From positions 243,125-307,124 of the IMG/VR virus record IMGVR_UViG_3300037110_000087: a stretch of DNA of 64,000 nt. One strand, written 5' to 3'. Both the position numbers and the translations under genes were made by a program. The notes under the pieces were generated by a model. The model had not been told where the DNA came from, searched no databases, and was given only the letters and a program-made list of their open reading frames with translations. This DNA is from a virus. Positions 34,596 to 47,020 of the stretch are shown in pieces (position 1 is the stretch's first letter; every line of letters starts with the position of its first letter).

Positions 34596-36824
34596 ATGAA
34601 TCCAGTAAGTCGTTATATCAAGTTTGGGCCAAAAGATCTGGTGTTTGTGGAACAGAACGTAACCCATTTCACCACGAAGACTACAAAACCAACCATCTTC
34701 AGCATGAACAACTATTTATTGTTCGATGAGAGCGGATCCATGTATGGGGTGATCCAGACTCTCTGTGATCATATGAAGAAACGCGTCAATACTCTGCCTA
34801 TCGGTGATACAGTCACTCTTGGTTGGTTCAGTGGGCAGGGTAGTTATCGCTTCATTGTGAAGGGTTTCCGCATCAGCACTCCAGCGGACTATGCAACCAT
34901 TTGCAAGATTATTGATCAGAACTGCACGACTCGTGGGACCACTTGTTTCTCCGAGATCTTGTTCGACCTGAATGAAGTGATCGATGAGGTCACCGCTCTC
35001 AACAATCTGCCAAATTCTCTGACCTTCTTCACTGATGGCTATCCGGTCGTCTCCAGCTACAACAAAGAGATCGCGGATATCACCAGTGCGATCAGTCGGG
35101 TTGCATCGAAGATCACTTCTACTCTTCTGATCGGATATGGAAGCTACTACAACAAGCAGCTAATGACCTCAATGGCCGAACTATTTGGTGGCTCATTGAT
35201 TCACAGTGAGAGGATTGGTGAAGAATTCTCCAACCGAATGCACAATTTCACCAGGGACGCACGTGAGAACAGCGGTCGTATCACTCTGGTCGTGACTGGT
35301 ATGAATCCAGAATCTATTGCCTTCAGCATCAATGGTGATCAGATTGTCTACTACAACACCAGCCGGAACGATATTCTCTACACTCCTTGTCAGGGTGAGA
35401 ACTTCATCTACTTCCTAACCACCCACGTGCCTGAAGGAGCAGTAGAATACAAGGGATTCTCAGGTAAGACAGCTGAAGGATTGACGTCTGATTCTTTCGT
35501 GAAGGGAGCGTACGCTCTCGCTTATGCTCTGACTCAGGCGACCAAAACCGATCTGGCTCTGGATCTACTGGTTAAGATTGGAGACATCGCGGTAATCGAT
35601 CGAGTAGTCAATAGTTTCACCAACACAGAATACGGAGTAGCTGAAGCCAACATTTTGGATTGTGTGACCACTCCATCCAAACGCTTCATTGCCGGTCGTC
35701 ACACCAACTACCTTCCCCCTGCGGATGCGTTCTGTCTCAAAGATGCTATTGATTTGCTGGTGAGAGATGACAACGCATTCTTCTATCCCTGCGATGAGTC
35801 GTTCGAATATCAGAGGATCGGAAGAAAGGCAAAAACCAAAGAAGGATACCCGGAGTTCAAGAAAAATATCTCTTCAAAATGTCCTTTGAGTGATCTGGTC
35901 TACCACGAATCTCGGCTTAACCTGAGCATCCGGACCCGAATCGAAGGAACAGTAACATTGGATGAAAAGGCCGAAGAGCAGAATTTCTGCAAGAACTATC
36001 GGACTTTTATCTGGAGAAACTACACGATCGTTAAGGATGGTATTCTCAATCTGACCACCCTGCCTCTGTCAATGAGCAAGGCGACCTTCGACGTACTCCG
36101 GTCTAACGGTATGATTATGGCCGACAAGTGCTCAACACTTACTCCTCCCCCTCCCCAGTGGCAGGAAGGGGAAATTTATTCCGTCAAGCTGGATACCGTG
36201 CCGGTCATGAATCGCAAGATTGCGGAAGGTAACACTTCAGCCAAGTCCCTGGCCCAAGCAGCAGTGAAGGAACTGAAGCTTGAGGCCCAGCAGAAGGTGG
36301 TCCGCAACTTCCTTGGCAAGTACAAGCAGCTTGACAAGACCGCCGTAGGACCCTTCACTGCCGGTCAGAAGACCTATCTGGAAGGCTTCGGAATCACTTC
36401 CAACGGGTTCAACCCGCCTACTGAGACTCTGCCAGCCGAGGACTTCTACGAGGCCCTGGAATTCGAGATCAAAATCAAAGGATTCTCGAGTCTGCCCAAG
36501 GTTCCTGACGTCATCGCGAAAGTGGCAGCCAAGAAGATTCATACTGGTCCAGAACAGCTGATGCTGGCGATGATCAAGGAATGCGAAGATGTTGAAGCCC
36601 TTCATGGTGATAACGCGGCTGTAGCGGTAGCAATCTTCGAGGGAATACTGGCGAAGATCAAACAGGAGCTTGTTGAAGTTCGTGAAAAGATTCAATCGAC
36701 CAAATTTGCGCTGCTTTTAGGCAAGAAGTGGTTTGATGAGTTCAGTTCACGTGATGACTCCAGTTTGACCGTAGATGGCAAAGAAGTAACTTTCTCTCTG
36801 CGTACTAAGCGGGTGGAATTTTAA
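34596..36824 (+). CDS. Von Willebrand factor A (VWA) domain protein
   Basis: 742 aa. Residues 40-220 are a VWA domain: the MIDAS motif LLFDESGSM (about 41-49), a Thr in TTRGTTCF and the Asp in FFTDGYP. The remaining 500 residues are not recognised and are mostly soluble alpha/beta. VWA proteins assemble metal-dependent complexes, often with AAA ATPases or as Ro60-like RNA binders; no ATPase partner is adjacent. AAGGAGAACT precedes the ATG. Confidence 0.85.
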   Translation: MNPVSRYIKFGPKDLVFVEQNVTHFTTKTTKPTIFSMNNYLLFDESGSMYGVIQTLCDHMKKRVNTLPIGDTVTLGWFSGQGSYRFIVKGFRISTPADYATICKIIDQNCTTRGTTCFSEILFDLNEVIDEVTALNNLPNSLTFFTDGYPVVSSYNKEIADITSAISRVASKITSTLLIGYGSYYNKQLMTSMAELFGGSLIHSERIGEEFSNRMHNFTRDARENSGRITLVVTGMNPESIAFSINGDQIVYYNTSRNDILYTPCQGENFIYFLTTHVPEGAVEYKGFSGKTAEGLTSDSFVKGAYALAYALTQATKTDLALDLLVKIGDIAVIDRVVNSFTNTEYGVAEANILDCVTTPSKRFIAGRHTNYLPPADAFCLKDAIDLLVRDDNAFFYPCDESFEYQRIGRKAKTKEGYPEFKKNISSKCPLSDLVYHESRLNLSIRTRIEGTVTLDEKAEEQNFCKNYRTFIWRNYTIVKDGILNLTTLPLSMSKATFDVLRSNGMIMADKCSTLTPPPPQWQEGEIYSVKLDTVPVMNRKIAEGNTSAKSLAQAAVKELKLEAQQKVVRNFLGKYKQLDKTAVGPFTAGQKTYLEGFGITSNGFNPPTETLPAEDFYEALEFEIKIKGFSSLPKVPDVIAKVAAKKIHTGPEQLMLAMIKECEDVEALHGDNAAVAVAIFEGILAKIKQELVEVREKIQSTKFALLLGKKWFDEFSSRDDSSLTVDGKEVTFSLRTKRVEF

Positions 36825-37045: not shown

Positions 37046-37348
37046 ATGGACAAGTTTGTTGGTTATTTGTATGAAAATGGGGACAGAAGATTTTGGGGTA
37101 AAGATCCTTTCAGCTGGACTAAATGTTCTGATGAGCTTCCCCCCAAAGATGAGACCGTGGTCCTCCTGTGGTTTGATAAACTATCCGAAACGGGTGGTTA
37201 TGAATATTGTCACGGTTTTGGCACTCCAGATGAATATGACAATACTCTGGATGCGATTACTGATGGCTGTGTGGTTGGTTGGATGCGGTTACCTGCAAAA
37301 CCCGACTGGTATCCGATGAAGGAAGAGGAATCTAATGATCAGGTTTGA
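37046..37348 (+). CDS. DUF551-like small protein
   Basis: 100 aa from ATG 37046. WTKCSDELPPKDETVVLLWF and GWMRLPAKPDW match the DUF551 pattern (W-x-x-x-x-LP near the start, WxxLPxxP at the end). Role unknown; common in phages. Overlaps the next gene by 14 nt. Confidence 0.7.
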   Translation: MDKFVGYLYENGDRRFWGKDPFSWTKCSDELPPKDETVVLLWFDKLSETGGYEYCHGFGTPDEYDNTLDAITDGCVVGWMRLPAKPDWYPMKEEESNDQV

Positions 37349-39716
37349 AAATCTACACATAGAAGGTGGACTTAGTTTTCGTGATTCCGTCGACTTTCCA
37401 CTAGCTGGTCAGGGTTTGACTAAGCTGATTGGTAAGAATCTAGATGATATAGGTAGTAACGGATCTGGTAAGTCCAGCATTGGTGATCTGATGTCTCATA
37501 TCATCTTCGGCACTACAGCCAAGGGAATCAAGAAAAATCAAATTATCTGTAATTATACCGATACTGGTTATCTTGGAATCCTTACTGCTGATATTGATGG
37601 GAAGAAGATTAAAGCTCTGCAGTCCCGGCAGCACAAAAAGGAAGGGACCAAGGTCCAGTTATTTGCGGATACCCTCCCGATGCATGTGAAGGGTCTTGAA
37701 GAGTCTCAGGCCCTGGTCGAGAAGATGTTCAGATTGACTTTGGATGAATGGCATGCTACTACCCATTTCTCAAGAAATGAACCCCATCTGTTCATCAAGA
37801 GTACCGGCAATGACAACAAGAAAGCCATGCTGGCCCGAATCTTCAGCCTAAACTACCAGCAGTATCGGGAGGAGGCCGAGGAAAAACTGAAACTGACCAG
37901 GGAAGAGCTACTCAAGCTCAAGAACAACCTGAGTGCTTCTAAACAACAGTTAGAGACTACCTTGATGGAGATGGGTAATCCTGATCCAACCGTTAAATTA
38001 ACTGAAATTAAGGGTTGGGAAACTGTCATCGCTGATACTAAGAAGATTGTTTTGGATTTACAGAAGGCTATCGACGACTTCGATAAGGCACGGAACACCC
38101 AGATTAAATACAATAGTCTCAAAGAAATGATCGAAAAGAGCCTTTCAAATTTGGGAGAGTGGATTGGCCAGATCCCTACCTATGCTGAGGTTGAAGCAAA
38201 GATCACTACTCTTGCGGACACGATTAAGCAATACAACGAGACTATCGTCCAATATGAGACTTTTATCACTTGCTTAAAGGATCGAGATTTTCTGATCACG
38301 GAGCTTAAGAAATTTGATGTTCCCGGCTTCAATCCTGTCAGTGTCGCAGATCAAATCACAGGGTTGCAGAATTATCTAACCGATCTCAACAAATTTGATA
38401 TCAGTCTGCTGCGGAAGTATAACAACTTGAGGGCTACGCTTGTTCCAACCTCAGATCCAGTTGCTCTAGAAAACAAATGGCGAGAATTAGAGACAGAATT
38501 TGGGAAGGTTCAATATGAGTCTCTCGATCTAAGTAAACAATTTGAGGGGGTTAAATCAGGAATTTGTATCACTTGTGGGCACGAGATCGCGGTTAAAGAC
38601 CTTGGAGAATTGGAAAGTAAACTTGGTAATATCAGACAGAAATTGTCTGAAATAGCAGTGGAGAGTACCAAGACAAGAGAGGCATGGGATAAGGCTAGGA
38701 ATGAATGGTCCTATTACAATCAAGCTAAAGCCCAACTTGATATGTTGGCTCCTACTTATGAGAAGGTGAATGAGGAAGACCTTAATCAATACAAGACCAA
38801 CACTCAGGAGCAAATTAACGCTCTCACTCTCCAGGAGCAGCAGTTCCAATACTGGAAGAGTCTGACTGAACGGTCTGCCCAGTATGTGAGTCTTAAGGAA
38901 TACACGGTCGAGCAATACGAGATTGCTCTATCCGGTGCCAAATCAGCCCTGGATAAAATCAAGAACACCCATCTTGGATATTCTCAGTTGAGACTAACTG
39001 TTAATCAATATGAGATGTTGGATCCAATTGCCATTGATCCAAATTTTGATCCTTTAGTGGTCAGAGCCAAGATCAACGGTCATCAAGAAAGTCTGGAATC
39101 AGGGTTCAACGTCCTAGGAAGACTCAAGAAGGAATATGAACTGCTGATGGACACCCTCAGTAAGCTCAACTCAATCAAAGGGCGAGAGGGCGAGATTACT
39201 GCCCTGGAGAACATGGAGCAGGTCTATAGTGGTCTGACCTACGCCTTTGGTCCAAAGGGTTTGATTGTGGAGCGGTTGGGCGTAATTTGCGAATTCTTGA
39301 CCGAACGGGTCAACTTCTATCTGCACCAGATCATGAAGGATCAGGTAGTGATGAAGTTTTATATGGATGGTGATAGCATCGACTTGGATATCTTCTTTAA
39401 GGGAGAGACTAGGGGATCCGGAAACCTGAGTGATGGAGAACGGGCTAAGGTTGGTTTGGCTTGCATGTTCGGGATGCGTAGTCTGCTTCCTTCATCTCAT
39501 CAGAATAATATCATGATCTTGGATGAGGCAGATGCTAACTTTGATGACTCAATTCGGATAGAATTGCTCGAGATTTTACAGAGTATCATTGATAATTCGA
39601 ATATTGATAGCATTTTTGTTGTCTCTCATGCTGATGTCGTAAAAGATAGCATGTTATTTAAAACAACCTTCGATATCACCAAGAAGGATGGTTGTAGTAC
39701 CCTCAGCGTCTACTAA
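37335..39716 (+). CDS. Rad50/SbcC-like SMC ATPase
   Basis: 793 aa. Walker A GSNGSGKSS (about 41-49), long coiled coils, a zinc-hook CITCGHE at about 411-417, the ABC signature NLSDGERAKVG (about 694) and Walker B IMILDEADANFDD (about 728). It corresponds to phage T4 gp46 and SbcC: with a Mre11/SbcD-type nuclease it processes DNA ends for recombination. The nuclease partner is not in this window. Confidence 0.93.
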   Translation: MIRFENLHIEGGLSFRDSVDFPLAGQGLTKLIGKNLDDIGSNGSGKSSIGDLMSHIIFGTTAKGIKKNQIICNYTDTGYLGILTADIDGKKIKALQSRQHKKEGTKVQLFADTLPMHVKGLEESQALVEKMFRLTLDEWHATTHFSRNEPHLFIKSTGNDNKKAMLARIFSLNYQQYREEAEEKLKLTREELLKLKNNLSASKQQLETTLMEMGNPDPTVKLTEIKGWETVIADTKKIVLDLQKAIDDFDKARNTQIKYNSLKEMIEKSLSNLGEWIGQIPTYAEVEAKITTLADTIKQYNETIVQYETFITCLKDRDFLITELKKFDVPGFNPVSVADQITGLQNYLTDLNKFDISLLRKYNNLRATLVPTSDPVALENKWRELETEFGKVQYESLDLSKQFEGVKSGICITCGHEIAVKDLGELESKLGNIRQKLSEIAVESTKTREAWDKARNEWSYYNQAKAQLDMLAPTYEKVNEEDLNQYKTNTQEQINALTLQEQQFQYWKSLTERSAQYVSLKEYTVEQYEIALSGAKSALDKIKNTHLGYSQLRLTVNQYEMLDPIAIDPNFDPLVVRAKINGHQESLESGFNVLGRLKKEYELLMDTLSKLNSIKGREGEITALENMEQVYSGLTYAFGPKGLIVERLGVICEFLTERVNFYLHQIMKDQVVMKFYMDGDSIDLDIFFKGETRGSGNLSDGERAKVGLACMFGMRSLLPSSHQNNIMILDEADANFDDSIRIELLEILQSIIDNSNIDSIFVVSHADVVKDSMLFKTTFDITKKDGCSTLSVY

Positions 39717-39725
39717 GGAGAATAG

Positions 39726-40130
39726 ATGAAAATCAGACAGGGATTTGTTTCTAACAGTAGTTCCAGTAGTTTTTTGATTTATGGAATAGCTCTAGAGCGC
39801 AATGAAATCATGGACAAACTGAGTAGAGAACTGCTTAAGTCGATGTTCATTGAGAGTCGAAAAGGGACTTATGAGGAAGAATTTGAAATTATTGATGAAG
39901 ATCTCGATAATTTTGATCCCCCTATCTATGATGTTGTCGAACATCTTGGCGTAGATTACCATCATCCCTACGATGGGAGTACCTATTACTTTGGTTTATC
40001 CTGGGATGAGGTGGGCGACAATGAGACTGGTGCCCAATTCAAGAAACGAGTCGAAGATTCCATCAAAGGGGTTTTCATTCTTGACTCTGGTGAGACATTT
40101 GGTACCCATGAAGAGGCGTGGCATGACTAA
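39726..40130 (+). CDS. SNSSSSSF-motif protein 1
   Basis: 134 aa. Starts MKIRQGFVSNSSSSSFLIYG, the shared N-terminus of six proteins in this cluster. The rest is acidic; it aligns with protein 2 in STYYFGLSWDEVGDNETGAQ against EAFYFGRKWCRIKDDETGAQ. The conserved part is a short leader; the bodies diverge. No function known. AAGGAGAATAG upstream. A radical SAM gene lies 1 kb downstream. Confidence 0.8.
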   Translation: MKIRQGFVSNSSSSSFLIYGIALERNEIMDKLSRELLKSMFIESRKGTYEEEFEIIDEDLDNFDPPIYDVVEHLGVDYHHPYDGSTYYFGLSWDEVGDNETGAQFKKRVEDSIKGVFILDSGETFGTHEEAWHD

Positions 40131-40482
40131 TTATCCCGATGGTGACGTAGAATTCAACCGCATTCACAATGACCCCAAATACAACTCCAGTATTCATTTT
40201 CAGGCTGGGGGTGCTGATGATGTCCTGGTGATTGATAGAGATGGAATGCTCTACAAGGGCAAACGGATCGAGGATGCTGGTGAAGCATATGCAGCATTTA
40301 TGCAGATGATGGGACAGATGAATAATCAGCCGAAGATTCGCGAAGCCGCAAAGAAGCTCTATTATGCTGCCCATTGGTCTGCGGATCGTGATGTGGAAGA
40401 GAACAAACTATGGGAGAACCTACGCGATGCCCTGGGACTGGAGCCTGGGAATTCTCCAGAGGAGATCAAGAATGAAAATTAG
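40123..40482 (+). CDS. Hypothetical protein
   Basis: 119 aa from ATG 40123 (MTNYPDGDVEFNRIHNDPKY), overlapping the previous stop by 8 nt and the next start by 11 nt. Lacks the SNSSSSSF leader. Unrecognised; helical C-terminus. Confidence 0.65.
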   Translation: MTNYPDGDVEFNRIHNDPKYNSSIHFQAGGADDVLVIDRDGMLYKGKRIEDAGEAYAAFMQMMGQMNNQPKIREAAKKLYYAAHWSADRDVEENKLWENLRDALGLEPGNSPEEIKNEN

Positions 40483-40870
40483 AAATGGATTTGTCTCAAA
40501 CAGTAGTTCTAGCAGCTTCTGTATTTATGGGGTCTGTGTAGAGCGCGGTGATGAGAAACATGTGTTCAGCGACGAGATCATTAAATCTATTGTTGCAGAA
40601 CAATTAGATATGGTTCCTAGAGAAGTCTCTGACGAGACAATCCGTAATTTCGATCTCACCGAGGTTGACGATCTCGAATATATTCTAGCCAAGAGTATTG
40701 GTACTGATTGCTGGCGAGGTGAGGAAGCCTTTTATTTTGGCCGTAAATGGTGCAGAATTAAGGATGACGAGACAGGTGCACAATTCAAACAGTCCATCGA
40801 AGAAAAGCTCCGTGGAGCCTTTAAGAAAGAACCGAAATTCGAGACTCATGACGAGGTTGTTTACAGTTGA
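40472..40870 (+). CDS. SNSSSSSF-motif protein 2
   Basis: 132 aa from ATG 40472 (AGAGGAG upstream), MKIRNGFVSNSSSSSFCIYG. Closest relative in the window is protein 1 (shared DETGAQFK and ETHDE segments). Only this copy has Cys directly after the motif Phe. Confidence 0.8.
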   Translation: MKIRNGFVSNSSSSSFCIYGVCVERGDEKHVFSDEIIKSIVAEQLDMVPREVSDETIRNFDLTEVDDLEYILAKSIGTDCWRGEEAFYFGRKWCRIKDDETGAQFKQSIEEKLRGAFKKEPKFETHDEVVYS

Positions 40871-40897
40871 AGGTTGTTAAACAAAGTGAGGTGAAAA

Positions 40898-41113
40898 ATG
40901 GCACAGATCGTTCCTGCCCAGAAGGGCTTTGAAATCGTTGGACTCCCAGATGAGGGGGTCCCCGATATCCGCCAGGGTGCTTGGCTTGATTCCACCCATC
41001 TGAGAGGGGTTAAACGTCGCCAGGGTCGCACCAAGTTCACTCCGCTCCGGTTCCCTGATCAGGCCAGCGCTCTCCGGTATTGTCAGCGTCGGAACATTGA
41101 AATCACCGAATAA
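40898..41113 (+). CDS. Small basic hypothetical protein
   Basis: 71 aa, MAQIVPAQKGFEIVGLPDEG..., Arg-rich centre (RGVKRRQGRTKFTPLRF). GAGGTGAAAA upstream. Unrecognised; lies between protein 2 and the radical SAM gene. Confidence 0.65.
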   Translation: MAQIVPAQKGFEIVGLPDEGVPDIRQGAWLDSTHLRGVKRRQGRTKFTPLRFPDQASALRYCQRRNIEITE

Positions 41114-41130
41114 TTTACCATGAGGCAGAA

Positions 41131-42231
41131 ATGCTCAGAATCAGGGAATCCTCTATCATCAAGTCCGTGAGGTCGAAGAACTATAACTTCGATTTCGACA
41201 AGAGGACTGGCTTTTTCGCCCGATGGGGAACGACAAAAGAGGATGATCCCTCCATGGCTCCTGCTCCGGAGATTCTCGATTTTGAGATTTCGTATGGTGG
41301 CGACTGTCTGGGGAATTGTCCAATGTGCTATAAGGACAATTCTGGCCCTCAGCCCACCGTTAATCTCTCATTTGAGGATTTTAAGACAATCCTTGATAAG
41401 ATGCCTCCGCTACTTACCCAGGTAGCGTTTGGCATCATGAATATCTCCACCAATCCAGATTTCTTCAAGATGATGGAGTATTGCAGAGAACGAGGTATTG
41501 TTCCTAATTACACCTGTCATGGTCTGGATGTTACTCCTGAGATCGCTGAGCGAACGGCTGCGCTATGTGGTGCGGTGGCTGTTTCTGTGTATGATAAGGA
41601 GAAATCATACAACGCTATCAAGATGTTTACTGATGCTGGCATGAAGCAGGTCAACATTCATTGCATGCTGTCGGAAGAGACATTCGGCTTTGCCAAGAAG
41701 ATTGTGTATGATATTCATACTGATATCCGGCTGGAGAAGCTTAACGCTATTGTGTTCCTGGCCTATAAGCCAAAGGGCCGGGAAGGTGGCAAGAAGTTCT
41801 TTCACACAATCAAAGATCCTGAGAAGTATAAGGAACTGATTCAGTATTGTACCGATCTGAAAGTGAATTGGGGTTGTGATAGCTGCTCTGCTCCGATCGT
41901 GCTCCAGGCATTCCAAGGAACTGGTCGCTATGGATCGGTGGCTCCCTTCATCGAGCCTTGTGAATCATCTTTATTCAGTTCATACATTAGCGCTGAAGGG
42001 ATGTTCTTCCCTTGCAGTTTCACGGAAGGTGAATCGGGGTGGGAACAGGGACTCGATGTTCTCCATTGTGATAATTTCGTCCAGGACATCTGGATGCATC
42101 CACGAACAATTGCTTTCCGCGAGAATCTGATTGGTAGCTGTGAGGGCTGCTCAGGATGTCATTCTCAAAAAATCTGCAGAAGCTGCCCTGTGTTCGATAT
42201 TACCGGCTGCGTCATTCCACGGGAGGATTAA
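41131..42231 (+). CDS. Radical SAM enzyme with SPASM-like C-terminus
   Basis: 366 aa. CxxxCxxC at 59-66 (GGDCLGNCPMC) binds the SAM-cleaving 4Fe-4S cluster. The C-terminal 30 residues hold seven Cys (CEGCSGCHSQKICRSCPVFD and a final TGC), a SPASM/twitch-like site for auxiliary clusters. SPASM radical SAM enzymes modify peptides or proteins, including Ser or Cys oxidation and RiPP maturation. It sits among six proteins with the same serine-rich leader and its stop overlaps the ATG of the next one. Confidence 0.88.
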   Translation: MLRIRESSIIKSVRSKNYNFDFDKRTGFFARWGTTKEDDPSMAPAPEILDFEISYGGDCLGNCPMCYKDNSGPQPTVNLSFEDFKTILDKMPPLLTQVAFGIMNISTNPDFFKMMEYCRERGIVPNYTCHGLDVTPEIAERTAALCGAVAVSVYDKEKSYNAIKMFTDAGMKQVNIHCMLSEETFGFAKKIVYDIHTDIRLEKLNAIVFLAYKPKGREGGKKFFHTIKDPEKYKELIQYCTDLKVNWGCDSCSAPIVLQAFQGTGRYGSVAPFIEPCESSLFSSYISAEGMFFPCSFTEGESGWEQGLDVLHCDNFVQDIWMHPRTIAFRENLIGSCEGCSGCHSQKICRSCPVFDITGCVIPRED

Positions 42232-42626
42232 TGAGAATCAGATCTGGCTTCGTCAGCAATAGTAGTTCCAGTAGCTTTATCATCATTGGTTTCAAGATGA
42301 ATCCCTACGCACCTGAGGCTGTGGAGTTCCTGAAATCCATGGGTGATACCAAGATTGGGACGTTCGAGGACGAAGATGATGAGATGGACTACATCTATGA
42401 TACCTATACGTCTAAACATTGTAAGAAAGGGACTGAGCAATCCCCTTATCGATTCGCTGATGATTACTTTGGGATCGTTCTATTCAATAAGAGCAACGAG
42501 GGTGACTATATACCCAATGGGGAAATAAGCGCAGAGGATCTCATGCGAAGGTCCATTGAAATTGCCATTAAGTTTGGGAAGGACCTTTCCGAGGTCAAGT
42601 TATACTATGGGACCTATTCCAGCTAG
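42231..42626 (+). CDS. SNSSSSSF-motif protein 3
   Basis: 131 aa, MRIRSGFVSNSSSSSFIIIG, ATG 42231 overlapping the radical SAM stop (TAATG) with GGGAGG just upstream, hence translationally coupled to that enzyme. Body acidic and unrecognised. Confidence 0.8.
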   Translation: MRIRSGFVSNSSSSSFIIIGFKMNPYAPEAVEFLKSMGDTKIGTFEDEDDEMDYIYDTYTSKHCKKGTEQSPYRFADDYFGIVLFNKSNEGDYIPNGEISAEDLMRRSIEIAIKFGKDLSEVKLYYGTYSS

Positions 42627-42635
42627 GAGTTTAGA

Positions 42636-43202
42636 ATGAAGATCAGAACTGGTTTTGTCAGCAATAGTAGCTCTAGTAGCTTCGTGGTTGCATTTTCCTA
42701 CGAGAACCCCACCGTTGAGCAGATCCTTGAGGTTTTTAAGCCTAGGGCTTACATGTCGTATAGTTGTTTAATTACCGGCCAAGAGATCGGCAATGCCCTG
42801 GTGCGTGACACTCAGGAACAGAAAGGTATTTTGATCTGTGAAGACAACCTGGGTGAACTATCTGGTATGGTCAATGATGACTGGGAGTTCAATGAATGTT
42901 TACAGGACCCCTGGTATCAGAAGCTTGCGATTCTTATTAAAGAGAGATTCGCGGAACTGAAGAAAGAGGAACCGGAATCTAGCATTGAACAAGAGGGGTG
43001 GAAGATCAAGCAATTCGTTGATAATTTCACTGACAACCTTGGTAATAGTGACCTGCATAATTGGATCAAGAAGAATGAAAGTCAGTATGCATTTGCCTAT
43101 TCTTACTGTGACGAGGGTGGGGGCTGTGGGAGTGCATTGGAGCATGGTGATCACTGGAATAATGTTCCAAAGGAATCACTCTTATATGAAAGTCATCATT
43201 AA
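42636..43202 (+). CDS. SNSSSSSF-motif protein 4
   Basis: 188 aa, MKIRTGFVSNSSSSSFVVAF. Longest member. Near 165-172 it has DEGGGCGSALEHGDHW, a Gly/Cys/His-rich patch. Begins 9 nt after protein 3; AGGAG upstream. Confidence 0.8.
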   Translation: MKIRTGFVSNSSSSSFVVAFSYENPTVEQILEVFKPRAYMSYSCLITGQEIGNALVRDTQEQKGILICEDNLGELSGMVNDDWEFNECLQDPWYQKLAILIKERFAELKKEEPESSIEQEGWKIKQFVDNFTDNLGNSDLHNWIKKNESQYAFAYSYCDEGGGCGSALEHGDHWNNVPKESLLYESHH

Positions 43203-43480
43203 TGAAAACTTATGTTGTCATTATCAAAGACCTTGAAGGAGAGAAGATTCTCTTAGAATATGGTCGAGATCTTCTAATTAGCCGATCCATTTTAAATAAG
43301 ACTGAAGAAGAACAGAGTGAGTTACTTTGGTTTTGGGCTAATAAAATGTATTCTAATCTTGAATATCAAATGGGATGGAAGGGAGGTATAATTAATTTTA
43401 CTCCCCCTGATGGTGGACCAGATGATAGAATGACCATTCGTGGTGTATCTTATTTAAATCTTAAAGAGGAGAATAAATGA
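43202..43480 (+). CDS. Hypothetical protein
   Basis: 92 aa, lacking the leader motif. ATG overlaps the previous stop and its own end overlaps the next start. Contains NFTPPDGGPDDRM. Unrecognised. Confidence 0.65.
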   Translation: MKTYVVIIKDLEGEKILLEYGRDLLISRSILNKTEEEQSELLWFWANKMYSNLEYQMGWKGGIINFTPPDGGPDDRMTIRGVSYLNLKEENK

Positions 43481-43932
43481 AGATCAGACAGGGTTTCGTC
43501 AGCAATAGTAGTTCCAGTAGTTTCATCGTCATCGGCAATAGTGGCAGTTTCGAAGATCTTCCCGATTTTATTGGGCTAGATGACGTTCTTGAATGTGGTG
43601 ACGCAATTGGATCCACCGAATTTGGTTGGGGTCCTGATACTCTGTATGATATGGGTAGCCGGATTAATCTCTGCGCCATACAGGCTCTTAGGAGAGGATA
43701 TTGTGATGAGGGCGAAGGTGAAATAATCAACCAGGAACGGAAAGATAGTATCCTTCGTGTAATTAAAAAGCATAATCCAGAGATCTGTGATATCACATTC
43801 AAATCAGAATGGGCCTATATTGACCACCAGTCCGTCGATGAACTGGCTGAGATGTTCGAATCAGATGACACACTGGAACGGTTCATTTTCGATAGTGGTT
43901 CCTATATCAAACTGGACAACGATAACCATTGA
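43477..43932 (+). CDS. SNSSSSSF-motif protein 5
   Basis: 151 aa, MKIRQGFVSNSSSSSFIVIG. AGAGGAGAATAA upstream. Acidic body with GDAIGSTEFGWGPDTLYDMG, not shared with the other members. Confidence 0.8.
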   Translation: MKIRQGFVSNSSSSSFIVIGNSGSFEDLPDFIGLDDVLECGDAIGSTEFGWGPDTLYDMGSRINLCAIQALRRGYCDEGEGEIINQERKDSILRVIKKHNPEICDITFKSEWAYIDHQSVDELAEMFESDDTLERFIFDSGSYIKLDNDNH

Positions 43933-43939
43933 GGGCAAT

Positions 43940-44095
43940 ATGTGGAGTGGTTGGGCTAACCCAAAGTATGATCGAATAATCACGGTGATCTTTGTGGCCA
44001 TTGCTGCAGCTTTTGGATTGGGGATCGTTGCAGCAATATATCTTCCTCAACTATGGCATTGGCTAATACCAATTATTCATCACTGGGCTTCCTAA
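43940..44095 (+). CDS. Small membrane protein
   Basis: 51 aa, MWSGWANPKYDRIITVIFVA...; one long hydrophobic segment (ITVIFVAIAAAFGLGIVAAI). GAGGGC upstream. Unrecognised. Confidence 0.65.
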   Translation: MWSGWANPKYDRIITVIFVAIAAAFGLGIVAAIYLPQLWHWLIPIIHHWAS

Positions 44096-44128
44096 AGGTT
44101 ATTTGGAATAGTCCTAGGAGTCAGTCCC

Positions 44129-44884
44129 GTGAATCTGAATGAGAAAGATTACGATATTAAAGGAATCAAGTTCTGGCAGTCTTTCCTTGATCGTCTTGGA
44201 AGTTACAGTGGTGTTACTCATACTGCCGTGGTCCATAAGATCAAATACTGCAGTAATCACATTGAGATTGAGTGCACGAGTCCACGCTCGATTATTACTC
44301 TGTTAAATTTGTTATTCCAGGCATATGAGAAGGATGGAAAGATTATCTTACCTGACGGTGGTTTAGCTGGCTATCGTCAGTTAAAATGTCTGTGGTTGTA
44401 TATGACTGTGCTATTTGAAGATCAAGAGAATAGCTTACTACTGCAAAGTTTCATCAACCACTACTATCCAGGCAGTCTCAGATTGTTCACTACCAGATTC
44501 CTAAAACATTTGAACAAGATTGTTGACCTGGAAGGGATTGTAAGAAGTAGTGGCGTCCAGGATGTAGATTTTACCGAGACTGGGATGCAGTTCACTTGGC
44601 CCATTATCTTCGGGAAGACCAAACAGGAGATTCTTGAGGGGAACATTTCCGGCTTAGTATTCCAGCGGGACGAGACAAGGGAATTAGAAATTCTAGATGT
44701 CAGCTTTGATTTCTGTTGGGCTGCACTATCTGGATCATCCTGGGCCGGGAATATTGATGCTTTATTTGAGGATGAGAGTCTCCCATTCAAGCATCTGAAA
44801 GAGCATGAATTTTCAAAATTGGATAAGGATGACTTTCTCTATTGTAGGGACAAGGTAGAAGATTTAATGAACAATATGATATAA
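44129..44884 (+). CDS. Hypothetical protein
   Basis: 251 aa, GTG start after AGGAG. Soluble alpha/beta; segments FWQSFLDRLGSYSGVTHTAV and FCWAALSGSSWAGNIDALFE. Unrecognised. A TATAAT-like box near its 3' end may serve the next gene. Confidence 0.7.
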   Translation: MNLNEKDYDIKGIKFWQSFLDRLGSYSGVTHTAVVHKIKYCSNHIEIECTSPRSIITLLNLLFQAYEKDGKIILPDGGLAGYRQLKCLWLYMTVLFEDQENSLLLQSFINHYYPGSLRLFTTRFLKHLNKIVDLEGIVRSSGVQDVDFTETGMQFTWPIIFGKTKQEILEGNISGLVFQRDETRELEILDVSFDFCWAALSGSSWAGNIDALFEDESLPFKHLKEHEFSKLDKDDFLYCRDKVEDLMNNMI

Positions 44885-44904
44885 TAAAAGGAAAGGAGTC
44901 CCAG

Positions 44905-45372
44905 GTGGTTAGATTGCACTTTATTGCGACAGTTAAAGAAATCAGCAGAGAAGGTATTAAGAAGAACGCTAGTATTGCTGATGATAATACTTACCTTTAT
45001 TCACGTAAAGAAGGAATGACGGGAGAGCGTATTGTTCGTGATGCCTATATGCAGTGTCCTGAATCCATTTTCCAGAAGGTTGTTGCTTCCCATCTTGAAG
45101 GTCTTGCGGAATACACCGATACCCCTTTCCCGGATTATTTACCCAAAGTCCAAGCAGCTATCCTTACCAGTAATCGCAGAAAGATCTGGATTGCCTTCGA
45201 TTTTGCTGAATCCCTTGGTGAAATGTATACTCTTAAAGAAATGTTTGAGTATATTTTCAATGTAAATATGGGATTTGACATCGATCCAGAATTTCAATCC
45301 TGGATCGAATCTTATACTCCTGCCGAAAAAGATATTGCAATTCTTGAAAAGGCAAGACGCAAGAACCTATAG
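44905..45372 (+). CDS. Hypothetical protein
   Basis: 155 aa, unrecognised. Non-ATG start region after AAAGGAG; the exact start (GTG at 44905) is the best-spaced option. Not related to the leader family. Confidence 0.65.
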   Translation: MVRLHFIATVKEISREGIKKNASIADDNTYLYSRKEGMTGERIVRDAYMQCPESIFQKVVASHLEGLAEYTDTPFPDYLPKVQAAILTSNRRKIWIAFDFAESLGEMYTLKEMFEYIFNVNMGFDIDPEFQSWIESYTPAEKDIAILEKARRKNL

Positions 45373-45402
45373 ACCCCGCCAATTGGCTTAGCAAAGGAAC
45401 AA

Positions 45403-46209
45403 ATGGTTGACTTTCATAACTATCAGTTGCCACCGGGATCTCGATGGCGACAAATGACTTTTTGGGATCCCCTACTTGGTTGTACTCCTGTATCTGAGGG
45501 CTGCAGATATTGTAGTTCTGCTCGTGCTGTTGACGAAGAACTAATCACCTGGAGAGATGGTCTGCCCCATTTCTGTGGCAAGGTCAAATGGGATGAATCA
45601 GCGTATGAAGACGCTGAGTTCTACCCCGAGAATTCCCAGGTTTTTGTCTGTGGCAGAAGCGATTTGTTTCATGAGGCTGTCTCTGATGAGATCATATTAA
45701 GGATCATAGAGGCCGGAAGATTGCGGCCTGACTGTTTATTCTTTGTTATCACTAAACGTCCGGAAAGACTACACGAGATTTGCTCTAGGATTGATGTTCC
45801 TGTGAACTTCTGGCTCGGTATCACTGTCGAGAATCAACGGGTAATTGACCGATTGAAATGCTTCGAAGGGGTGAGAGCCACTCGTGTTGTAAGTGCCAAA
45901 CCTCTGCTCAGCAATATTGATTTTTCTCCCTATATGAATCTGTTTGACATGATTATCGTAGGTGGAGAATACAACTACTTGGATCTCGATCGATCGCGTC
46001 CTATGAGTCTTAATTGGGCGAGATCAATTCGTGATACCTGCGTCAAACACAACAAACCTTTTAGCTTCCATAACTGGGGCAGCTGGATTCCTTGTTCGGA
46101 AAAAGAATCCACCAGGGTTGTTGATGGTCATTTCATGAAGCACCACGATAATTCTGAGGGTGCTTATCTCCTGGATGGTGTCAGTTGGGACCAATACCCA
46201 CAATCATAG
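45403..46209 (+). CDS. DUF5131 (phage Gp37/Gp68-like) protein
   Basis: 268 aa. FWDPLLGCTPVSEGCRYCSSA matches the DUF5131 start (W-x-P-x-x-GC-x-x-x-S-x-GC-x-x-C), a radical-SAM-like cysteine arrangement; VFVCGRSDLFHE, FFVITKRPERL, WLGITVENQ and VVSAKPLL are the other family blocks. The reaction is unknown. It is the second iron-sulfur-type enzyme in the leader-motif cluster. Confidence 0.88.
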   Translation: MVDFHNYQLPPGSRWRQMTFWDPLLGCTPVSEGCRYCSSARAVDEELITWRDGLPHFCGKVKWDESAYEDAEFYPENSQVFVCGRSDLFHEAVSDEIILRIIEAGRLRPDCLFFVITKRPERLHEICSRIDVPVNFWLGITVENQRVIDRLKCFEGVRATRVVSAKPLLSNIDFSPYMNLFDMIIVGGEYNYLDLDRSRPMSLNWARSIRDTCVKHNKPFSFHNWGSWIPCSEKESTRVVDGHFMKHHDNSEGAYLLDGVSWDQYPQS

Positions 46210-46724
46210 GTTCTTGGGCTACTCACTATTGGTATCCTGAATTTAGAGACAACGGTGATATTGACTGTTATGTTGCACCACAATTTTGCAAATTTTTGCG
46301 GGAAAAGAAATTTGATCCCCAAGCTTACACACGGATCAATGGACTTCTGGATGTTTGCAATTTGGAAGGTCCACTAATAGAAATAGATGGAATCTGGTTT
46401 AAAATAGCCACACCAAAAATGTTGTTGGCTATCAAACGAGTCCATATTTCATTAACGCTCAAATGGTTGAAGAATATCTCAGACTTTGTGTGGCTGGCCC
46501 AGCAAGGCGTCAAGATAGACACTGAGACAGCCAATGCCTTCCACCAAAGAATGATCTACATGCATGAACAATTCTCTGATGAAAATGGAAATGAAGTTAT
46601 ACCCGAGGATATCTCACCCACTGAGTTAGCCACTCTCGTGGAGTGTCGTCGTGTCAGTCCAACTAAAGCTGCAGAAATTTTTATACAGAATTGTGGTCTG
46701 GACTTAAAAGATTACTTAATATAG
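46185..46724 (+). CDS. Nucleotidyltransferase-fold protein
   Basis: 179 aa. IIGSWATHYWYPEFRDNGDIDCYV has the GS-x(n)-D-x-D pattern of minimal nucleotidyltransferases (DID as the metal-binding acids). The rest is helical. Such proteins modify RNA or proteins (MNT, AbiE type). It overlaps the previous gene by 25 nt; the true start might be the GGT-adjacent region slightly later. Confidence 0.6.
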   Translation: MGPIPTIIGSWATHYWYPEFRDNGDIDCYVAPQFCKFLREKKFDPQAYTRINGLLDVCNLEGPLIEIDGIWFKIATPKMLLAIKRVHISLTLKWLKNISDFVWLAQQGVKIDTETANAFHQRMIYMHEQFSDENGNEVIPEDISPTELATLVECRRVSPTKAAEIFIQNCGLDLKDYLI

Positions 46725-46732
46725 GAGGGTCT

Positions 46733-47020
46733 ATGAAGACTCGCAGCGGTTTCGTCAGCAATAGTAGCTCTAGTAGCTTCGTCATTCTGGGATTTGAGAT
46801 CCCGAATAGAATGGATCCACCAGAGGAGGGTGAATATAGCGTCGTCCAGACCGATTGTGACACGACTGTCTTCGGCTGGAAGATCAACGATGGGGGTGAA
46901 TTCCTGGATTACAATGAGGTTTCCTGGGAGGAATTAACTAAGGAAGCCAAGGCTATCTCCAGTAGGTACAAGATTCCGATGGAGAAGATTAAACTCTATA
47001 CCGGGACCAATAGCAATTAG
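46733..47020 (+). CDS. SNSSSSSF-motif protein 6
   Basis: 95 aa, MKTRSGFVSNSSSSSFVILG, the shortest member. AGGAGG upstream. Its C-terminus VSWEELTKEAKAISSRYKIP then KIKLYTGTNSN parallels protein 3 (ISAEDLMRRSIEIAIKFGKD then VKLYYGTYSS). Last gene of the plus-strand block, convergent with the next gene. Confidence 0.8.
   Translation: MKTRSGFVSNSSSSSFVILGFEIPNRMDPPEEGEYSVVQTDCDTTVFGWKINDGGEFLDYNEVSWEELTKEAKAISSRYKIPMEKIKLYTGTNSN

Follow-up and report, generated by a model that had tools for sequence, protein, structure and literature searches.

The last 64 kb of the 307,124-base virus record IMGVR_UViG_3300037110_000087 (64,000 nucleotides, positions 243,125 to 307,124; hereafter, the window) contain a gene cluster in which six proteins begin with one serine-rich peptide, termed here the tag, around a radical S-adenosylmethionine (SAM) enzyme. 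The six open reading frames (ORFs) encode M[KR][IT]RxGFVSNSSSSSF at residues 1–16, as read in the initial annotation of this DNA, and all six frames are open (Table 1). They are the only matches to the tag in the whole record, with none on the opposite strand and none to a reversed control pattern. The enzyme gene lies between the second and third tagged genes, and its product carries both the CxxxCxxC motif that had been reported (C59-x3-C63-x2-C66) and, in the cysteine-rich end that had been called SPASM-like, an actual SPASM motif (C277-x12-G290-x4-C295). The TAA stop codon of the enzyme gene and the ATG of the third tagged gene share one base (TAATG) behind a GGAGG, which makes the translational coupling that had been asserted plausible.

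Two of the earlier readings of the tagged genes stand only in part. The bodies, described as divergent, do differ in four members; those of proteins 1 and 2, however, are homologous (37% identity, one cluster) and share their family with 18 phage homologs. The end of protein 6 resembles that of protein 3 (KLYYGTYSS) and that of phage proteins terminating in ELITGTRYC. Synonymous codon variation had been taken as a sign of selection on the peptide. This does not hold within the window, where the serine run has the same order of codon classes in all six copies (AGT-AGY-TCY-AGY-AGY), which points to recent local copying or duplication; it does hold in the wider set of tagged genes described below.

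Table 1 Features of the tagged gene cluster and its flank, with positions counted from the first base of the window
Feature	Position	Strand	Remarks
Tagged protein 1, 134 aa	39726..40130	+	Tag codons 39726-39773; N-terminus matches phrog_7397
Tagged protein 2, 132 aa	40472..40870	+	Body family common to protein 1
Radical SAM/SPASM enzyme, 366 aa	41131..42231	+	phrog_7293; AlphaFold2 model
Tagged protein 3, 131 aa	42231..42626	+	Start codon shares one base with the radical SAM stop codon
Tagged protein 4, 188 aa	42636..43202	+	phrog_7397 is its best match over the full length; ends in ...ESHH, like the SHH group
Untagged ORF between tagged genes 4 and 5, 92 aa	43202..43480	+	No Pfam match
Tagged protein 5, 151 aa	43477..43932	+	Tag at residues 1-16
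DUF5131 protein inside the cluster	45403..46209	+	PF07505, 3.5e-46
Tagged protein 6, 95 aa	46733..47020	+	C-terminus KLYTGTNSN
SbcC/Rad50-like ATPase	37335..39716		Ends ten bases ahead of tagged gene 1
742-aa protein	34596..36824		No Pfam match; VWA-type in appearance

A degenerate DNA pattern of the tag was scanned through viral contigs and one genome per species; tagged proteins are counted below among the matches listed. The tag, with the consensus MK[IV]Rx[GD]FV[ST]NSS[ST][ST]S[FY] (for example, MKIRSGFVSNSSSSSFIIG) and in two main flavors, GFVSN and DFVTN, occurs in archaea, many bacterial phyla and phages, on dozens of otherwise unrelated proteins. Residue counts in the 508 tagged proteins, which are conditioned on the search pattern, were 506 for K2 and for R4, 499 for F7 and 508 for each of N10, S11 and S12; S13 was present in 479 (threonine in 25), S14 in 421 (threonine in 66), S15 in 493 and F16 in 452 (tyrosine in 54). 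A second reading was made at starts near radical SAM genes, for which only residues 1–8 were required. There, 275 of 288 starts continue with [ST]N[ST][ST], and N10, S11 and S12 are each found in 275/275; the remaining 13 comprise three plain variants (S11L, S12R and S9A) and otherwise unrelated sequences. Judged by its codons, the tag is kept by selection as a peptide and not as DNA, because AGY and TCN both occur at every serine position and third-position identity is only 42%, compared with 88% identity at the amino acid level. The 508 genes contain 489 distinct 30-mers, and a DNA-level element was ruled out by this divergence.

The association between the tag and the enzyme is near-obligate and general. 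A single-sequence search with the window enzyme returned one relative, and the association was studied using pattern scans and profiles. Among the loci listed, which were retrieved by the tag alone, a radical SAM homolog was encoded in 63/87 cellular stretches and in 43/119 short viral stretches with a five-serine tag; it lies on the strand of the tag in all 106, and in 22 loci the tag starts 3–41 nt past the radical SAM stop codon. Most loci with SSSTSF or SSTTSF tags encode the enzyme too (Methanosarcina, Methanoculleus, Arenibacter, Odoribacter, Mojavia, Sporomusa, Verrucomicrobia, and others). It should be noted that absence of the enzyme is weak evidence, given the shortness of many loci and the incompleteness of some contigs, and that counts of related genomes are not independent. 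Of 25 viral contigs that are 100 kb or longer and had no enzyme gene in the retrieved stretch, 20 carry it elsewhere (E from 1e-75 to 1e-150); these contigs have one to ten tagged genes each. In the pseudo-T-even phages GAP161 and KP15, no tag was found within 10 kb of the radical SAM gene, yet two tagged genes lie 20–24 kb away. Across 50,697 phage records, the enzyme was found in 173–174 and the two tagged proteins in 174 and 175, in the same genera; this co-occurrence is that of one lineage and counts once. Two IMG/VR contigs, L091 (180,500 bases) and L093 (176,788 bases), have two tagged genes each, as phages RB43 and RB16 presumably do.

The same association was recovered when the search started from the enzyme. 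Five of 291 Clostridia genomes encode it (E from 3e-85 to 3e-143), and none of the others reaches 1e-20. A tagged gene adjoins the radical SAM gene in all five; one of these genomes (G001) had been picked for its tag, and the other four were unselected, so that the adjacency there (4/4) came from a search blind to the tag. Three of the Clostridia tags were variants outside the strict pattern: MKYRTGFVTNSSSSSN, VKIRKGFVTNSSSTNF, and MKIKADFVTNSSSTSF. Plasmids found by the enzyme, in Agrobacterium tumefaciens Ach5, Rhodobacter sp. CZR27 and Rhizobium sophoriradicis, encode MK[IL]KMDFVSNSSSTSF proteins next to it, and Vibrio phage D479, found in the same way, has five tagged genes. In the Bacteroidota, cyanobacterial and Methanosarcina groups, none of 1,175 unselected genomes matched the enzyme, and all four tag-selected genomes of these groups have it. 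Altogether, the family is very rare: 4/1,465 unselected genomes have the enzyme, each with an adjacent tagged gene. Chance association is ruled out by these blind tests and by the genome background. A concern raised along with the initial annotation was that tagged proteins might be widespread away from any radical SAM gene; the reverse was seen in phages as well as in bacteria and archaea. The proposal that the tag serves the enzyme as a recognition or modification segment common to these proteins is supported in every direction examined.

The three-cysteine motif of the window enzyme, together with its modeled TIM-barrel-like fold, places it in the radical SAM superfamily. PF04055 matches it with E=1.2e-4, below the gathering score, and matches 27 of 54 family members at 1e-3; the SPASM model PF13186 matches 38/54. 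Further C-terminal cysteines are complete in the cellular enzymes and reduced in some phage enzymes, the last ones being lost in two of them (L020 and L126). The AlphaFold2 model (predicted local distance difference test (pLDDT), 93.1; predicted template modeling score, 0.92) was compared with known structures using Foldseek, which ranked SuiB first (TM-score 0.73 by query), followed by SkfB, CteB, TigE, anSME, PqqE, and ChlB. Sequence-profile matches were to SkfB (7e-8), BtrN, and PqqE. On its modeled fold, the enzyme belongs with the peptide-modifying radical SAM proteins such as SuiB, SkfB, CteB, and anSME. It reached the cut-off of no NCBIfam radical SAM maturase family (for example, 30.6 vs 265 bits for mycofact_rSAM). 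A tree of 128 enzymes contains a phage clade (36 of its 39 members are viral), one clade for the STAND operons described below and one for gut Clostridia, with some viruses nested inside the last. In the PHROG library, the enzyme is contained in phrog_7293 and the tag in phrog_7397; both are of unknown function, and they are linked neither to each other nor to a function.

The spacing of the radical SAM cysteines varies, from C-x3-C-x2-C in the window to C-x7-C-x2-C in KP15 and up to C-x12-C-x2-C at locus L050, and is roughly C-x7-C-x6-C in the Clostridia group. In two long contigs, the radical SAM frame is broken by a single stop codon, TAG in G314 (contig of L079, 547,943 bases) and TGA in G309 (contig of L058, 368,758 bases), with homology over the full length; stop codons are perhaps recoded in these giant phages.

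One type of cellular locus is a four-gene operon that encodes, in this order and with short overlaps, a STAND ATPase of about 900–1,050 aa, an ORF product of 121–148 aa, a tagged protein of 122–140 aa and the radical SAM enzyme. It was found in archaea, cyanobacteria, Bacteroidota, Verrucomicrobia, Alphaproteobacteria, and Bacillota. The STAND ATPases match SMEK_N, or have another N-terminus, together with NACHT/Avs2-like models, and the STAND gene is present only in cellular operons with SSSTSF-type tags; the window has none. This operon, which is not in PADLOC 2.0 as such, looks like a candidate anti-phage defense module. Phages also carry the tagged body family of the STAND operons. The N-termini of the STAND proteins change between loci (SMEK, protease-like, and others; L178 from Arenibacter, L209, L149, L200, L220, L252, L276, L279, L280, and L281), and the operon is also found on an Agrobacterium pAt plasmid.

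When residues 1–18 were removed, the bodies of the tagged proteins (median about 136 aa, range 45–717 aa) fell into about 130–170 BLAST clusters, depending on the threshold; in a profile-profile comparison of the 28 largest, a few joined and most stayed separate. The largest cross-domain body family, cluster 0, includes phage, bacterial and archaeal proteins. Its AlphaFold2 model (pLDDT, 88.8) is a folded domain in which residues 1–9 of the tag are predicted to be disordered (mostly below 50) and a strand begins within the serine run. Library matches of the bodies were BRCT in two proteins and a BspA-type leucine-rich repeat in one, and were otherwise stray. These three proteins come from cellular loci, where the tag is joined to known domains too. 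Six contigs of metagenome-assembled genomes of Deltaproteobacteria/Myxococcota (L184, L190, L231, L146, L224, and L234) carry two to four tandem copies of one tagged body family; several of these arrays adjoin the radical SAM gene, and no STAND gene was detected there.

Around the tagged genes of the window, the 92-aa ORF is probably co-transcribed with its neighbors. A DUF5131 gene does lie inside the cluster, as had been noted, and was rejected as a part of the system, since no homolog was found at any other motif locus. Its product has a three-cysteine motif, C-x6-C-x2-C (CTPVSEGCRYC), and is possibly a second radical SAM-like protein. Upstream of the cluster are tRNA genes and genes of large-phage type, such as that of the SMC/SbcC-like ATPase.

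We consider it likely that the radical SAM/SPASM enzyme is a dedicated maturase whose radical chemistry modifies a site within the tag that begins many proteins, as part of what looks like an undescribed protein-modification system common to giant phages and to bacterial operons resembling anti-phage defense. The enzyme would bind the flexible tag of many otherwise unrelated proteins, and the invariant part of the tag (K2, R4, F7, N10, S11, and S12), lying in a segment predicted to be flexible, would suit threading into the enzyme. The modification would most likely be made at or next to F7-V8-[ST]9-N10-S11-S12, because this segment hardly varies. Large phages encode a single enzyme together with one to ten tagged proteins, whether or not these are linked to it; in bacteria and archaea the pair occurs in small operons, among them a type with an additional STAND ATPase of variable N-terminal domain. 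On the most economical reading, the tag is address and target at once, the bodies being carried along. With one to ten tagged proteins in phages and one in STAND operons, the simplest idea is that the modified tag would be a handle shared by these proteins in assembly or recognition. We infer all three steps, namely action of the enzyme on the tagged proteins, a modified residue within the tag and the use of the modified tag as such a handle. Oxidation or epimerization of serine or asparagine, or a carbon-carbon cross-link between F7 and a nearby residue, are candidate chemistries, among which the data choose none. Thioether formation was set aside as unlikely, because the tag consensus has no cysteine (cysteine was found at positions 13, 14 and 15 in 1/508, 6/508 and 6/508 tags, respectively).

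Several observations weigh against the maturase explanation. The bodies give almost no Pfam or NCBIfam match and hence no functional clue, and the cluster 0 model has no Foldseek match in PDB or BFVD. Five of the 25 large motif contigs show no radical SAM gene; they may be fragments. The residue table depends in part on the search pattern, though the count near radical SAM genes required residues 1–8 only, and the support is genomic or predicted throughout. In addition, the odd C-termini of the tagged proteins mean that the modification could lie outside the tag. The tag would then be a docking leader only, with one enzyme modifying another part, such as the C-terminus, of many very large precursors, as in a pathway for ribosomally synthesized and post-translationally modified peptides (RiPPs). 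Compared with other ORFs of the same loci, the last residue of tagged proteins is enriched in Y (5.6x), W (5.1x), H (4.7x), and G (3.1x); G, Y and C are still high when each body cluster is counted once, and endings such as WYDG, GAGRNG, SHH, NHMG and GTRYC recur across clusters. However, these endings differ between families, follow from homology within related families and are missing from many clusters. A leader also need not be so invariant at N10-S11-S12, with serines kept through switches between AGY and TCN, and we regard this explanation as improbable.

It is still less probable that the enzyme leaves the tagged proteins unmodified, the tag being an element by which they dock onto it or onto a partner, and that it acts instead on a small molecule or some other macromolecule. 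The enzyme has weak similarity to viperin models (PADLOC pVip, 2e-11; NCBIfam viperin_w_prok), and small-molecule radical SAM enzymes are among its lower fold matches, but in both fold and profile it matches peptide-modifying SPASM enzymes best. Tens of unrelated bodies sharing a docking peptide on a metabolic enzyme would be less economical, and up to ten tagged genes in a phage fit substrates better. Divergent small tandem phage proteins with a shared N-terminus, the codon classes of which are the same in all window copies, could also be explained by a targeting or packaging signal, or by a DNA-level element, with the enzyme merely a neighbor. The internal proteins of T4 offer an analogy: they have an N-terminal capsid-targeting sequence, which is cleaved by the head protease, and are packed in the virion. 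We give this explanation hardly any credence, as the tag adjoins the same enzyme in archaea and many bacterial phyla, the unlinked co-occurrence in Straboviridae and in 20/25 large contigs exceeds neighborhood, and synonymous divergence excludes a fixed DNA element.

The proposed tag maturation resembles several known systems without coinciding with any. With SuiB, SkfB, CteB and PqqE it shares the fold, the CxxxCxxC and SPASM cysteines and an enzyme gene beside presumed substrate genes. Identity to these enzymes is only 11–15%, and the presumed substrates here are proteins of 45–717 aa with folded bodies, many per genome, whose shared element is at the extreme N-terminus. The SPASM enzyme anSME, also a Foldseek match, oxidizes a serine or cysteine of a full-size protein. 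Here, in contrast, one tag is found on many unrelated proteins, it lacks the C/S-x-P/A-x-R motif and the bodies match no sulfatase. Prochlorosin-type systems have one maturase and many precursors with a constant leader, the variable part being a short modified core. They share with the present system one maturase and many genes with a constant N-terminal part; the enzyme class is different, and it is the constant part that is likely to be modified here, with a protein domain as the variable part. RiPP precursors are short, with a leader and a C-terminal core, whereas the tagged proteins have a median of about 136 aa, reach 717 aa and have a body modeled as folded; no conserved protease or exporter stood out among the neighbors at cellular loci, where no dedicated search was made. 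The cysteine donor that sactipeptides and ranthipeptides have in the modified segment is not found here. The large first gene of the cellular operon resembles Avs2/SMEK-domain proteins (SMEK_N, NACHT, and Avs2 models), but Avs systems as modeled in PADLOC are without the tagged small protein and the radical SAM enzyme, and here the four-gene order is constant.

No Pfam, NCBIfam or PADLOC family describes the enzyme and tag as a system. Among open-licence papers, none was found that contains GFVSNSSSSSF or NSSSSSF, a search that could miss a description in a subscription journal, and none that joins radical SAM enzymes with STAND NTPases or anti-phage defense, with Avs2 or with a serine-rich N-terminal motif. 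Open-licence papers on radical SAM enzymes and jumbo phages, or on SMEK, radical SAM and STAND, gave no description of the system in their titles and abstracts.

Known radical SAM enzymes act on one particular protein or on a short precursor peptide. In the present case, a single uncurated enzyme family pairs with a near-invariant N-terminal peptide on over a hundred body clusters. More tentatively, and with somewhat less than even confidence, we suggest that a prokaryote-wide N-terminal tag, which its dedicated radical enzyme activates or cross-links chemically, commits dozens of proteins that are otherwise unrelated to a single fate, and that phages and STAND immune operons use two sides of the same system. 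If the enzyme does modify the tag, this would be a general protein tag. Many hypothetical phage proteins, among them those of the laboratory-type phages RB43, RB16 and KP15, would then gain a first lead to their function, and STAND-type immunity would acquire a component of post-translational modification.

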